Below are positions 12,192-21,688 of a stretch of DNA of 28,484 nucleotides, piece by piece. The DNA lies in the IMG/VR virus record IMGVR_UViG_3300000117_000171, positions 1 to 28,484 of that record; one strand, given 5' to 3'. Made by a program: the position numbers and the translations under genes. The notes beneath the pieces were generated by a model. It had not been told where the DNA came from. It did no database searches and saw only the letters and a program-made list of their open reading frames with translations. The stretch is from a virus. Within the stretch, counting starts at the first letter, position 1; every line of letters starts with the position of its first letter.

Positions 12192-12236
12192 TTGCACCCT
12201 ATTGCTAGGCTTGGTACATTACATTGTGATTATCAA
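12192..12236 (+). promoter_or_regulatory. Promoter with conserved downstream element (copy 1)
   Basis: TTGCAC at 12192-12197 and TACATT at 12215-12220 are separated by 17 bases. Two bases later comes ATTGTGATTATCAA (12223-12236), which recurs exactly at 19030-19043 behind a similar -35/-10 pair. TGATTATCA is a dyad around a central T, so it could be an operator, or it may be the conserved start of the transcript. The site sits ahead of the early/replication-like genes beginning at 12259. The -35 match to TTGACA is poor; the strength of the call comes from the two copies. Confidence 0.6.
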
Positions 12237-12258
12237 GAAAAATAACAAGAAGTTAAAA

Positions 12259-17009: not shown

Positions 17010-17269
17010 GTAAAAACCAAGAATCATTATTTGGAGATTTAGACAAATATTCATGGTGGGATGAACATTGGCAAGATATGCCAGAGTATAAAATGCTAGA
17101 TGAAAAACCATTTCATACAATAAAAGTTCATTTTGTAACTAAACAAGATTTAAAAAATTTTAAAGAATTAATTAATCAGACAGTTACAAGTCAAACTAAA
17201 TCTATCTGGTTTCCTAAAAAAGATGAATTACCGCCAAGATATTTTTTATATGTGGATGAAGAAGAATGA
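17006..17269 (+). CDS. Small conserved partner of the DNA glycosyltransferase
   Basis: 87 residues, starting at the ATGA overlap. The segment FHTIKVHFVTKQDLKNF, followed by TKSIWFPKKDELP, resembles the C-terminal domain of ParB-like phage proteins that, from memory, occur beside TAGT-family glycosyltransferases; here it stands alone without the nuclease domain. The next gene is a TAGT protein, coupled by a four-base overlap. It might bind DNA or deliver modified substrate. The resemblance is pattern-based and needs a profile search. Confidence 0.5.
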   Translation: MSKNQESLFGDLDKYSWWDEHWQDMPEYKMLDEKPFHTIKVHFVTKQDLKNFKELINQTVTSQTKSIWFPKKDELPPRYFLYVDEEE

Positions 17270-18114
17270 ACCCTAAATATCCAATATATATAATATCAAA
17301 AAATAGATGGAAATATTGTGGTGGTAACTTATCAACCTCTCATGCTTTGGATTTAATAAATGTTCCATATAGGATTGTCGTAGAACCTCACGAATATGAT
17401 AATTATAAAGAATATATTAATCCAGATAAAATATTAAAACTCCCATTTTCTAATTTAAATAAAGGCAGTATTCCAGCTAGGAACTGGGTTTGGGAGCATT
17501 CAATAAAAGAAGGTCATAAAAGGCATTGGATTATAGATGACAATATTCAGCATTTTTATAGATTAAATAAAAATAGAAGATTGCATATTGCTAGTGGAAC
17601 TATTTTTAAATGTGCAGAGGACTTTGTGGATAGGTATATAAATGTACCAATGGCGGGATTTAATTACAATACATTTGCTATTCCTAGAAAAAATCTTGCT
17701 CCATTTTATCTTAATACTCGCGTGTATTCATGTATATTATTATCAAATAGTTTAAAACATAGGTGGAGGGGAAGATATAACGAAGACACAGATTTAAGTT
17801 TAAGAATTTTAAAAGATGGTAACTGTACAATATTGTTTAATGCTTTTTTATGTGATAAAGTAAATACAATGAGAATGGGGGGAGGTAACACAGACAAACT
17901 ATATAAAGATAATGGTAGAAAAAAGATGGCAGAGTCTTTAGTAAAGCAACATCCAGATGTTGTTAGAATGGCTTGGAAATGGGATAGATGGACTCACTTT
18001 GTAGATTATAAACAGTTTAAACTTAATAACAAGCTAATTAAAAAAGATGGGATTAGTATTAAAAAAGGTATTAATAATTATGGCATGAAACTAATTCAAC
18101 TGGAGGATGTATGA
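17266..18114 (+). CDS. TET-associated glycosyltransferase (TAGT) family protein
   Basis: 282 residues. The family pattern is clear: YPIYIISKNRW at 5-15, a VVEPHEYDNY segment near 38-47, GSIPARNWVWEHS near 67-79, the metal/nucleotide motif IIDDN with D91-D92-N93, and RYNEDTDLS near 170-178. TAGTs attach sugars to modified pyrimidines in phage DNA and often travel with TET/JBP oxygenases. No oxygenase or modified-pyrimidine synthase is seen in this window. The epimerase gene that follows, coupled by ATGA, could supply the sugar nucleotide. Confidence 0.88.
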   Translation: MNPKYPIYIISKNRWKYCGGNLSTSHALDLINVPYRIVVEPHEYDNYKEYINPDKILKLPFSNLNKGSIPARNWVWEHSIKEGHKRHWIIDDNIQHFYRLNKNRRLHIASGTIFKCAEDFVDRYINVPMAGFNYNTFAIPRKNLAPFYLNTRVYSCILLSNSLKHRWRGRYNEDTDLSLRILKDGNCTILFNAFLCDKVNTMRMGGGNTDKLYKDNGRKKMAESLVKQHPDVVRMAWKWDRWTHFVDYKQFKLNNKLIKKDGISIKKGINNYGMKLIQLEDV

Positions 18115-18968
18115 TTTTAGTAACTGGAGGAGCGGGATTTATTGGAACTAATTTAATTGATAGATTAATAAAAGAGAAAGAAGATGTAATATCATTTGAT
18201 AAAAAGAAATTTAAAAATAAAAATATAACTATTTTTAAAGGAAATTTATCTAAGTCTAAAGATTTAAAAATCTTTATTGAATACATTGGAAGAGTAAAAT
18301 TAATAATTCATTTAGGGGCAATAGCAAGAGTTCATACATCAGTTAAAGAGCCTAGAAAGGTATTAATAAATAATTTAGTTAGTACGATTAATATTCTTGA
18401 TTATGCGAATGAGTTTAATATTCCAATTATTTATGCGGGTTCAAGCTCAAGATATGCTGGTGCGAATAAAAGTCCTTATTCTTTTTCAAAATATAAAGGC
18501 GAAGAGCTATGCAAATTATATAATCAATTATATGGTTTGAAGACTTATGTTTGCAGATTTTATAATGTTTATGGAAATCATCAAATTGAAAAAGGTAAAT
18601 ATTCAACTGTAATAGGAGTATTTGAAAAGCAATTTAGAGAAAATAAGCCATTAACAATCGTAGGTGATGGAACACAAAAAAGAGATTTTACCCATATTGA
18701 TGATATTGTAGATGGGATAATAAAAGCAAAAAATATGATTATGGATTCAAAATATCCATATTTAGAATTTGATTTTGGAACTGCAACTAATTATTCTATA
18801 AATCAAGTTGCTAATATGTTTGGTAAAGATTATCCAAAAAAATATGTAAAAAGTAGGAGTGGAGAATATAATTTTTCATTAGCAGATAATACTTATACAA
18901 AGAACACTTTAAACTGGAAACCGAGGAGAAAACTATCAAATTACATAAATAATATAGTAAACTCTTAG
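18111..18968 (+). CDS. NAD-dependent NDP-sugar epimerase/dehydratase (extended SDR)
   Basis: 285 residues, starting at the ATGA overlap. The Rossmann glycine motif TGGAGFIG (5-12), an acidic residue for NAD (D30), a serine run SSS (111-113) and the catalytic Y123-x-x-x-K127 (YSFSK) identify an extended short-chain dehydrogenase of the UDP-glucose 4-epimerase type. A GDGTQKRDFTHIDDIVDGI stretch is conserved in this group. It is likely to make the sugar nucleotide used by the glycosyltransferase upstream. Epimerase versus dehydratase cannot be separated by eye. Confidence 0.88.
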   Translation: MILVTGGAGFIGTNLIDRLIKEKEDVISFDKKKFKNKNITIFKGNLSKSKDLKIFIEYIGRVKLIIHLGAIARVHTSVKEPRKVLINNLVSTINILDYANEFNIPIIYAGSSSRYAGANKSPYSFSKYKGEELCKLYNQLYGLKTYVCRFYNVYGNHQIEKGKYSTVIGVFEKQFRENKPLTIVGDGTQKRDFTHIDDIVDGIIKAKNMIMDSKYPYLEFDFGTATNYSINQVANMFGKDYPKKYVKSRSGEYNFSLADNTYTKNTLNWKPRRKLSNYINNIVNS

Positions 18969-18997: not shown

Positions 18998-19043
18998 TTG
19001 CCTCGTATTATATAAAGCCCTAGTTTGTTATTGTGATTATCAA
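18998..19043 (+). promoter_or_regulatory. Promoter with conserved downstream element (copy 2)
   Basis: TTGCCT at 18998-19003 and TAGTTT at 19021-19026 are separated by 17 bases, followed three bases later by ATTGTGATTATCAA (19030-19043), identical to the element at 12223-12236. Both copies have the ACTTGC core at nearly the same distance (34 and 33 bases), TAnnTT at the -10 position and an AACAAG in the leader. The site lies in the 100-base gap before the amidoligase gene. It suggests coordinated expression of this gene set and the early operon. Confidence 0.6.
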
Positions 19044-19068: not shown

Positions 19069-20085
19069 ATGCAAAAAGGTAAATTTAATAATAGTAGAGG
19101 TTTTGGAGTTGAAATCGAGTTCATCAGACCTAATGGTGTTTCTAAGCAATCTATATGTGATGCTTTAACAGTAACTTGTGAGGTAGAGGGATATAATCAT
19201 ATCACTAGACCACATTGGAAAATTGTTACTGATTGTTCAGTAAGAGAAAATAGCCGTCAATATGCTAGAGGTTTAGTTGGAGATAACGAGATTGTTTCTC
19301 CAATCCTTTATGGTGAAAATGGTTTTGCTCAATTAAAGAACATTTTAGATACTCTTAATGAGTTAGGTTGCGAAGTTAATTATACTTGTGGTATTCATGT
19401 TCATCACGATGTAACTAATAAAATGGTTGAAGGTAAAGAGCAGAGTCAAAAGTTTTTAGCTAACCTTATAAAATTTGTTGCTAAGTATGAGCATCTAATT
19501 TATAAGTTAGTTTCTCCATCAAGATTAGATAGTAGGGGTTATAGTACTCCAGTTAGGAAAGAGTTTTTTGGACACGCTGTAAGAATGGGAGAGTCAATAG
19601 ATAAAACTAATGTTAAAAAAATGGTTGCTAGAGTTAAAAATGATTGTAATAGTAAATATCGTTATGGTACTGAGATTAACAACAATCAACCATCTCCAAG
19701 TGTTCAATATAATAGAGCTTGTGGTCTTAACTTTCGTAATGTTTGGACAAGAGGGTCGGTTGAGTTTAGATACCATAATGGTTCTTTAAACTTCGATAAG
19801 ATTGTTTCTTGGATTGTTTTTACTCAAGCGATTGTTAATACAGTCGAAGATGCCAATAGCGTTCAAATGAGTTACGTTCCAAACAATGTTGATGGTCTTT
19901 TCTACTTAAGAAAAGCAATCGGTTTTGTGGGTAATACTAATAGAGATGATGTTACTGAATTAGCTACTAACTATATTGTTAAGAGATTCAAAGAGTTAAG
20001 TGCTAGAGAAGATGATTATACAAGAAATGGTAGACAATATAGTTATGTTCAAGATGGACTAACTACAAATCAAATAGGAGCGTAA
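19069..20085 (+). CDS. Amidoligase (Amidoligase_2 / COOH-NH2 ligase family)
   Basis: 338 residues from the ATG at 19069, with GAGG five bases upstream; a GTG at 19033 falls in the promoter element and is rejected. Diagnostic patterns: GFGVEIEF (11-18, acidic metal ligands E15 and E17), WKIVTDCSV near 50-58, NEIVSPIL near 73-80, CGIHVHHD (107-114) and a late VEFRYHNGSLN with a following W. These ATP-dependent ligases share the glutamine-synthetase fold and join a carboxylate to an amine. The next two genes are an amidotransferase and a cyclotransferase, as in published amidoligase operons. Confidence 0.88.
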   Translation: MQKGKFNNSRGFGVEIEFIRPNGVSKQSICDALTVTCEVEGYNHITRPHWKIVTDCSVRENSRQYARGLVGDNEIVSPILYGENGFAQLKNILDTLNELGCEVNYTCGIHVHHDVTNKMVEGKEQSQKFLANLIKFVAKYEHLIYKLVSPSRLDSRGYSTPVRKEFFGHAVRMGESIDKTNVKKMVARVKNDCNSKYRYGTEINNNQPSPSVQYNRACGLNFRNVWTRGSVEFRYHNGSLNFDKIVSWIVFTQAIVNTVEDANSVQMSYVPNNVDGLFYLRKAIGFVGNTNRDDVTELATNYIVKRFKELSAREDDYTRNGRQYSYVQDGLTTNQIGA

Positions 20086-20086
20086 T

Positions 20087-20977
20087 ATGTGTGGATTAGC
20101 AGGGATTATTTTAAAACAAAAAGATAGAGACAACGAGACCCTTAATCGGGTCTCAAAGTCTTTTGCGGGAATGCTTACAGAGGCAAACATTAGAGGCGGT
20201 CATGCGACTGGGTTTGCTTTAATAGATAAGCATGGAGATTATGTAATATGTAAGAAGCCAAAAGATGCTTATGGTTTTTTTAGCGATGAAGAAGTGCAAG
20301 ACAATATTGGTTTAGTTTATGATGGTATTACTACAATGATGGGTCATACTAGGTATGCGACACTAGGCTCTCCATCAATTAATAGTAACAATCATCCAAT
20401 TAGGACAGGTCAAACTATAGGAACTCATAATGGTTCTATATCTAATCATAAAGAGTTATTTCATAAGTACGATATGAAACGATTCGCTCAAGTAGATAGT
20501 GAGGCGATATTTAGATTATATGAGACATCTAATAATGTTGATGATTTCTTAGATAATAGATTACCAAAAGTTCAAGGTCGTGTTGCGATTGTTTGGGCGG
20601 ACTTAGAAAGACCAGATTATGTATATATGGTAAAAGCTAACAACCCTATTCAAATGGTCTATATAGAAGAGTTTGATTGCTTTGCTTATGGAAGTACCGA
20701 TTCTATTGTTAATGCGGGATTATGGGGTCATTGTGAGCCTATAAACATACCCGCTAATACAATGGTTAGGATTAATACTAGAACGCTTAAAATTGACACA
20801 AAAAAGATTAGAATAAAACAACCAAAGCCAAAACGCTTTTCGTTTTATGATGATAAGATTGGGGCATATAAAGACGAACCACAAACAGTTGATAGATTTG
20901 TTCCGAGGTTTTCTTATAGTGACCAATTAAAAATGTTCAAAGCTAATGATGGCTCAAAAATAAGAAAGGTAAGATAA
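20087..20977 (+). CDS. Class II glutamine amidotransferase
   Basis: 296 residues. The protein starts MCGLAGI, so Cys2 becomes the N-terminal nucleophile after methionine removal. Other class II residues are in place: R89 in GHTRYATLG, NHP (102-104), N115-G116 in GTHNGS and D137 in VDSEA. Such domains release ammonia from glutamine; no fused synthetase domain follows, so a separate enzyme must use the ammonia or the domain works in trans. The adjacent amidoligase is the obvious partner. The C-terminal 80 residues are basic. The start follows the amidoligase stop after one base. Confidence 0.9.
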   Translation: MCGLAGIILKQKDRDNETLNRVSKSFAGMLTEANIRGGHATGFALIDKHGDYVICKKPKDAYGFFSDEEVQDNIGLVYDGITTMMGHTRYATLGSPSINSNNHPIRTGQTIGTHNGSISNHKELFHKYDMKRFAQVDSEAIFRLYETSNNVDDFLDNRLPKVQGRVAIVWADLERPDYVYMVKANNPIQMVYIEEFDCFAYGSTDSIVNAGLWGHCEPINIPANTMVRINTRTLKIDTKKIRIKQPKPKRFSFYDDKIGAYKDEPQTVDRFVPRFSYSDQLKMFKANDGSKIRKVR

Positions 20978-21561
20978 TGACTGAAGTGTTTGTATATGGT
21001 ACATTAAAAAAAGGTGGAATGAATCATTATTTTTTAAAAGGTAGTGATTTCGTTAAGCACGAAGTTTTGCAAGACCATGCAATCTATGCGCCAAGAGGGT
21101 TCTCGTTTCCATTGCTTATACAAAGTGAGGGCGATAAGGTATATGGAGAAGTTTATAGCGTAAGTAGCACAACATTAGCTAAATTAGATATGCTTGAAAG
21201 CGAAGGAACTTTATATACTCGCGTTAATGATGTTGAATTAGGGTTTCAATATTATCTTTTTAATAAAGAATATGGAAATGTTAATTGGAATGAAGAGCGT
21301 GACAAAATACCTAATGGATATTGGAAAACTCAATACGAAATTGATTTGAATGTGATAATAGATAATCGTAACTATACAGATAAGGCGGACAAGTTAGTCT
21401 TTCATATGAGGTTCTTTGATGGGCAACGCGCACCAACAAATAAAATCTATATGGAATTAGTAAAGGCACGAAGCTATTTAGATTTAAACACCGAAAACGA
21501 AGAAATTTTTTTAAGAGATTGTATAATGGAAGGAGTTGTAAGTGAGTTCAAATACGAATGA
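20977..21561 (+). CDS. Gamma-glutamylcyclotransferase-like (GGCT/AIG2 fold) protein
   Basis: 194 residues. The signature VFVYGTLKKGG (4-14) is the substrate loop of the GGCT/AIG2 family, and the catalytic glutamate is expected at E74 or E76 in KLDMLESEG. The family cleaves gamma-glutamyl-amine isopeptides with release of 5-oxoproline. A C-terminal region after about residue 100 is longer than in minimal members. The gene overlaps the amidotransferase stop by one base (TAATG). With the ligase upstream it would hydrolyse or edit the same bond. Confidence 0.85.
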   Translation: MTEVFVYGTLKKGGMNHYFLKGSDFVKHEVLQDHAIYAPRGFSFPLLIQSEGDKVYGEVYSVSSTTLAKLDMLESEGTLYTRVNDVELGFQYYLFNKEYGNVNWNEERDKIPNGYWKTQYEIDLNVIIDNRNYTDKADKLVFHMRFFDGQRAPTNKIYMELVKARSYLDLNTENEEIFLRDCIMEGVVSEFKYE

Positions 21562-21688
21562 GATTTATAGTATAGCTTGCGATATATGCGATAAGAATGT
21601 CACAATCGTAAATAAGAAAAAGAAAGATAATAAAACGATTTGGACTTGTAATAACTGTGATTCTAAATATCCAAGATGGAAGAGCTAG
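21542..21688 (+). CDS. 48-residue zinc-ribbon mini-protein
   Basis: A GTG at 21542 with AGGAG (21531-21535) six bases upstream opens 48 codons, overlapping the cyclotransferase gene by 20 bases. CDIC (13-16) and CNNC (36-39) make a rubredoxin/zinc-ribbon knuckle pair with a Lys-rich strip between. It ends at TAG 21686-21688, overlapping the next ATG at 21676. The excellent ribosome site and cysteine pairs make it a likely real gene despite the non-ATG start. Function unknown. Confidence 0.65.
   Translation: MSSNTNEIYSIACDICDKNVTIVNKKKKDNKTIWTCNNCDSKYPRWKS

Follow-up and report, generated by a model that had tools for sequence, protein, structure and literature searches.

The phage "peptidoglycan modification cassette" reportedly goes back to Iyer 2009 and Hardies 2013. 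As described, it combines an amidoligase, a glutamine amidotransferase, an AIG2/gamma-glutamyl cyclotransferase, a second amidoligase, and an ATP-grasp enzyme, and is carried by phages phiEco32, 7-11, LUZ24, PaP3, tf, RIO-1, PSA-HP1, and CW02 (PMC5498523, PMC3890496, PMC11945000, PMC10580990). A role in blocking superinfection has been proposed for it, as a hypothesis only (PMC5498523, PMC3890496, PMC11945000, PMC10580990), and in the literature on phage cassettes we found no biochemical test of these enzymes or of their substrate. As in the locus described here, an amidoligase occurs with a GATase in the OM43 phages MEP401/402 (PMC10580990), and with both a GATase and a cyclotransferase in phage ZRK32, which adds a glutathione synthase and for which a function in nitrogen metabolism has been proposed instead (PMC10945688).

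Gene organization and family assignment

The locus lies in a small tailed phage represented by a complete IMG/VR record of 28,484 bases, classed as linear and hereafter called the window, in which no tRNA genes were found. Three plus-strand genes, together taking up ~9% of this small genome, encode a 338-aa Amidoligase_2 protein with a GS/GCS-like fold (AL, 19069-20085), a 296-aa class II glutamine amidotransferase of the Ntn type that has no synthase domain (GAT, 20087-20977), and a GGACT/AIG2-like gamma-glutamyl cyclotransferase (GGCT, 20977-21561) in which the catalytic part (residues 1-117) is followed by a C-terminal extension (residues ~118-194). The phiEco32, LUZ24, tf, RIO-1, and PSA-HP1 cassettes likewise carry Amidoligase_2, class II GAT, and AIG2/GGCT genes among early/replication genes, and the clustering of amidoligase, GAT, and GGCT that characterizes them is seen here as well. 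The present phage differs in its fixed three-gene order before the terminase, in the GGCT extension, and in the components that could be detected. A second amidoligase of the COOH-NH2_lig family (PF14395) was found neither in the window nor in 9 relatives, in a search whose sensitivity was limited, as a Vibrio phage with the larger cassette was matched only below threshold. Likewise, no ATP-grasp gene was seen among the profile-scanned ORFs, which represent part of all ORFs. With neither component detected, the trio appears to be a reduced variant of an already described system rather than the full published cassette, and the novelty implied by the original prediction is unsupported because the module, with the same enzymes, has been described in many phages.

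The three predicted enzyme families were borne out by profile searches, in which every match exceeded the curated Pfam cut-off: AL matched PF12224 (E = 4.9e-29, 102.4 bits; cut-off 22), GAT matched PF13522 (GATase_6; E = 3.6e-15, 56.6 bits; cut-off 27), and GGCT matched PF06094 (GGACT; E = 2.9e-20, 73.5 bits over residues 4-117; cut-off 22.8). PHROGs agreed with Pfam on all three genes. The adjacency of the genes was also as predicted, with ORFs separated by a single base at the AL-GAT junction and overlapping in TAATG at the GAT-GGCT junction. The AL start at 19069 is backed by the N-termini of relatives, and an in-frame GTG is also present upstream at 19033. Compared with close relatives, AL, GAT, and GGCT displayed dN/dS ratios of 0.09-0.25, indicating purifying selection, and a PADLOC search for membership of the trio in a defence system returned no match.

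All but one of the key residues originally named proved to be conserved. In AL, the ExE and HxH residues of Amidoligase_2 (E15, E17, H110, and H112) were invariant in the alignment of relatives, and D114 was invariant in a further alignment. In GAT, the Cys after Met, Arg, Asn-Gly, and Asp of the GlmS type (C2, R89, N115, G116, and D137) were invariant and aligned with GlmS, and the C-terminal tail was conserved as well (...FVPRFSY...DGSxIRKVK). In GGCT, residues Y7-G8-L10 of the YGTL motif and the catalytic Glu, E74, were invariant, with E74 aligning to E82 of human GGACT; the exception was E76, which showed no conservation among the relatives.

Predicted structures were consistent with these assignments. 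The AlphaFold model of AL (pLDDT 91) matched YbdK-type carboxylate-amine ligases best (Z 13.5, rmsd 4.7, 239 aligned), followed by glutamine synthetases, plant glutamate-cysteine ligase, and the depupylase Dop (Z 11-12), although sequence identity across this shared fold (Z 11-13.5) is just 10-15%. A sequence-based search for solved relatives of AL returned only de novo designed helical proteins, which we took as spurious. The GGCT model (pLDDT 90) resembled human GGACT throughout its catalytic domain (residues 1-120; Z 14.5, rmsd 2.4, 115 aligned) and differs from the human enzyme by its C-terminal extension.

Conservation of the gene neighborhood

In 26 related viral contigs, AL, GAT, and GGCT directly precede the terminase genes as a contiguous block with the gene order of the window; in three others, L041-L043, GAT is followed by GGCT only after 2.7 kb. 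For a wider survey, 79 amidoligase loci were grouped into 31 clusters (60% identity), 22 of which contained a member with 3 kb or more of sequence on either side. Within 4.5 kb of AL, both GAT and GGCT were found in 13 of these 22 clusters, GGCT only in five, GAT only in one, and neither in three, so that AL-only lineages exist also. Taking one representative per cluster, GAT was found within 1.5 kb of AL in 17 cases and further out in none, against 16 and 5 cases for GGCT, which was on the same strand as AL every time; ten distant GGCT calls were confirmed with Pfam. The neighborhood check thus upheld the predicted linkage, both in the related contigs and in these 13 wider clusters.

The linkage is strong and recurs, rearranged, in unrelated phages. 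Arthrobacter phages of cluster AL (Laroye, Salgado) and phage Ottawa likewise have the three genes side by side, but with ~30% identity, without the GGCT extension, and in the order GGCT-AL-GAT. In phage C75C1, a GAT-like domain is fused to GGCT in a gene annotated only as gamma-glutamyl cyclotransferase (L046:7711-8607), and in an unrelated phage type the gene next after a divergent, zinc-finger-fused AL encodes a class II GAT-like protein (L162:2702-4761 and L163:2326-4379), and GGCT sits elsewhere; the GAT calls in C75C1 and in these two loci were made from motifs read by eye, without a profile match. Cys-rich ribbon-like segments occur on both AL and GAT in L162/L163, at the C terminus in the case of GAT. 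A scan of bacterial genomes for amidoligases yielded only 9 loci, mostly on short MAG contigs, and was uninformative on the host.

Upstream region

Between 18998 and 19051 on the plus strand, directly before AL, a -35/-10-like block (TTGCCT, 17-nt spacer, TAGTTT) is conserved in relatives together with a 22-nt leader (ATTGTGATTATCAA...), and leader and block recur at 12192-12244, so that the same element stands upstream of two gene blocks. The original prediction gave the trio its own promoter: the conservation of the block speaks for this, whereas a generic sigma-70 scan called no site upstream of AL. The repeated block suggests that the trio may be co-expressed with the gene block beginning at 12192-12244, and expression is probably early.

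Further upstream lies a variable slot (17266-18968, plus strand), occupied in the window by a TAGT glycosyltransferase (17266-18111; PF20691, E = 7.6e-44) and an NAD-dependent sugar epimerase (PF01370, E = 2.9e-44). The slot genes are exchanged among close relatives while the trio stays. Its occupants are a C5-cytosine methyltransferase and a second methyltransferase in L002 (6087-7884) and, by sequence, in L034; an N4/N6 methyltransferase in L005 (6952-7884); a dUTPase, a DUF6378 protein, and a thymidylate synthase homologue in L010 (6478-7888) and, by sequence, in L020 and L037 (3382-6008); and two TAGT genes in tandem in L030 (4130-5754). Among the records searched, TAGT, C5-methyltransferase, and thymidylate synthase genes were mutually exclusive. 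No thymidylate-synthase-type or C5-methyltransferase gene was found anywhere in the record that carries the present TAGT, and solitary TAGTs have been reported before (PMC13216743). A Tet_JBP search gave no match, with the controls silent too.

This arrangement bears on whether the trio takes part in DNA hypermodification, decorating bases together with the adjacent TAGT and sugar epimerase. The trio does sit directly downstream of this pair, and the TAGT of phage T6 acts on DNA (PMC13216743). However, the trio stays the same when methyltransferase or dUTPase/thymidylate synthase genes fill the slot, has its own conserved leader, and is carried by Arthrobacter phages without such genes alongside. 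The constancy of the trio next to a varying slot makes it hard to assign the three enzymes to DNA modification; we consider such a role barely credible and rejected the trio as part of a TAGT system, and the slot is probably not part of the module.

Predicted chemistry and alternative readings

Among characterized enzymes, the GS-fold ligases nearest to AL proceed through a gamma-glutamyl phosphate, GGACT converts gamma-glutamyl amines to 5-oxoproline, and class II GAT domains attack glutamine at its gamma-amide or, as EgtC does, gamma-glutamyl amides. A linked three-enzyme module with amide or gamma-glutamyl chemistry is a well-supported prediction at this locus. As to its function, we tentatively favor, as possible rather than probable, a compact gamma-glutamyl (amide) modification module acting most likely on the envelope, for which we infer the reactions, their direction, and a partnership of the enzymes in trans as follows. 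AL would activate a carboxylate at the expense of ATP and join it to an amine; the gamma-carboxylate of either glutamate or a glutamyl peptide is the most likely substrate. GGCT would cleave gamma-glutamyl amides, releasing 5-oxoproline and removing either the same groups or existing ones of the host. GAT may convert glutamine to glutamate and ammonia for the ligase, or may hydrolyze gamma-glutamyl amides like its fold relative EgtC. The likeliest target would lie in the host envelope and be a peptide or an amine, in keeping with the published superinfection-exclusion idea; this leading guess comes from the literature and not from the genome, where the sole wall-related gene recognized by eye is a VanY/M15-like ORF (1052-1510) and nothing marks an envelope target.

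Attachment and subsequent removal of a gamma-glutamyl group, by a ligase and an Ntn hydrolase or cyclotransferase, are known from ergothioneine (EgtA/EgtC) and butirosin (BtrJ/BtrG) biosynthesis. The logic would be alike in the phage module, although GAT matched the EgtC model only weakly and under the cut-off (E = 5e-5), and no such pathway genes were seen. The trio was originally presented as a make-and-edit system, a description that fits the AL-GGCT pair. AL and GGCT pairs without a detected GAT suggest that ligase and cyclotransferase share a product, and the lineages with such pairs and no detected GAT nearby indicate that the role of GAT is not obligatory. GGCT could also act on free gamma-glutamyl metabolites.

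The same genes could instead serve pure amidation, in which GAT would channel ammonia to AL, AL would turn a carboxylate such as that of peptidoglycan D-Glu or meso-DAP into a carboxamide, and GGCT would have a side role. AsnB/LtsA and MurT-GatD are precedents for this chemistry, and it would suit a GAT with complete glutaminase residues, without a synthase domain of its own, and tightly adjacent to AL, including in L162/L163. Yet five AL clusters retain GGCT without a detected GAT, and the substrates of GGCT are gamma-glutamyl amines, not simple carboxamides, which makes amidation alone rather unlikely. We rate as less likely still a metabolic scavenging role, whereby the trio would process glutamine and gamma-glutamyl or glutathione-like compounds into nitrogen and amino acids for phage growth. 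GGCT families do break down gamma-glutamyl peptides, AL is close in fold to GCS/GshF, and this role was put forward for ZRK32 (PMC10945688). However, scavenging needs no ATP-consuming ligase, and the ZRK32 growth effect is not known to have been tied to these genes by deletion (PMC10945688).

Another reading is that a Pup-like ligase and remover tag or cap a protein of the virion or the host through isopeptide bonds. The AL fold also matches Dop/PafA, and both the conserved tail of GAT and the extension of GGCT could serve for docking or as substrates. The similarity of AL to GS and GCL is equally high, however, and no tag gene was identified, so that we regard tagging as quite improbable. The AL and GGCT core points to gamma-glutamyl chemistry as the focus for assays, and the three-gene form offers a tractable version for reconstitution. 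The ligase/cyclotransferase module is retained by phages of very different hosts, even in a small genome.

GGCT extension and downstream genes

The GGCT extension (21328-21558, plus strand) carries the motif ADKLVFHMRFFDGxRxPTNxxYMxLVxxR and is more conserved (residues 118-186; mean pairwise identity 0.65) than the catalytic domain (0.46). A Pfam scan of 21 members revealed no recurring family; a sub-threshold match to Tn7_TnsC_Int in 1 of the 21 was treated as chance. Nor did an HMM search of the Arthrobacter, Bacillus, and Vibrio cassettes reveal a stand-alone gene for the extension. It is absent from the 115-aa GGCTs of L035, L036, and L039, and the idea that a GGCT without the extension marks a genome without an amidoligase was refuted by divergent AL genes in the L035 and L039 records.

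A 48-aa zinc-ribbon ORF (CxxC...CxxC; 21542-21688, plus strand) overlaps GGCT at its 3' end, begins with a GTG start, and is kept at the same place in the close relatives L002, L003, L005-L007, L014, L018, L020, L021, L023, and L025. This ORF falls below the length of the program-made ORF list. One could picture the trio, the extension, and the zinc ribbon as one reversible machine that would put gamma-glutamyl tags on a specific protein or a specific polymer of the envelope, with the extension as the docking or targeting part, in a phage counterpart to pupylation/depupylation; we consider this very improbable. In one relative, a pyrimidine dimer DNA glycosylase gene (PF03013; L030:8618-9118) directly follows the trio.
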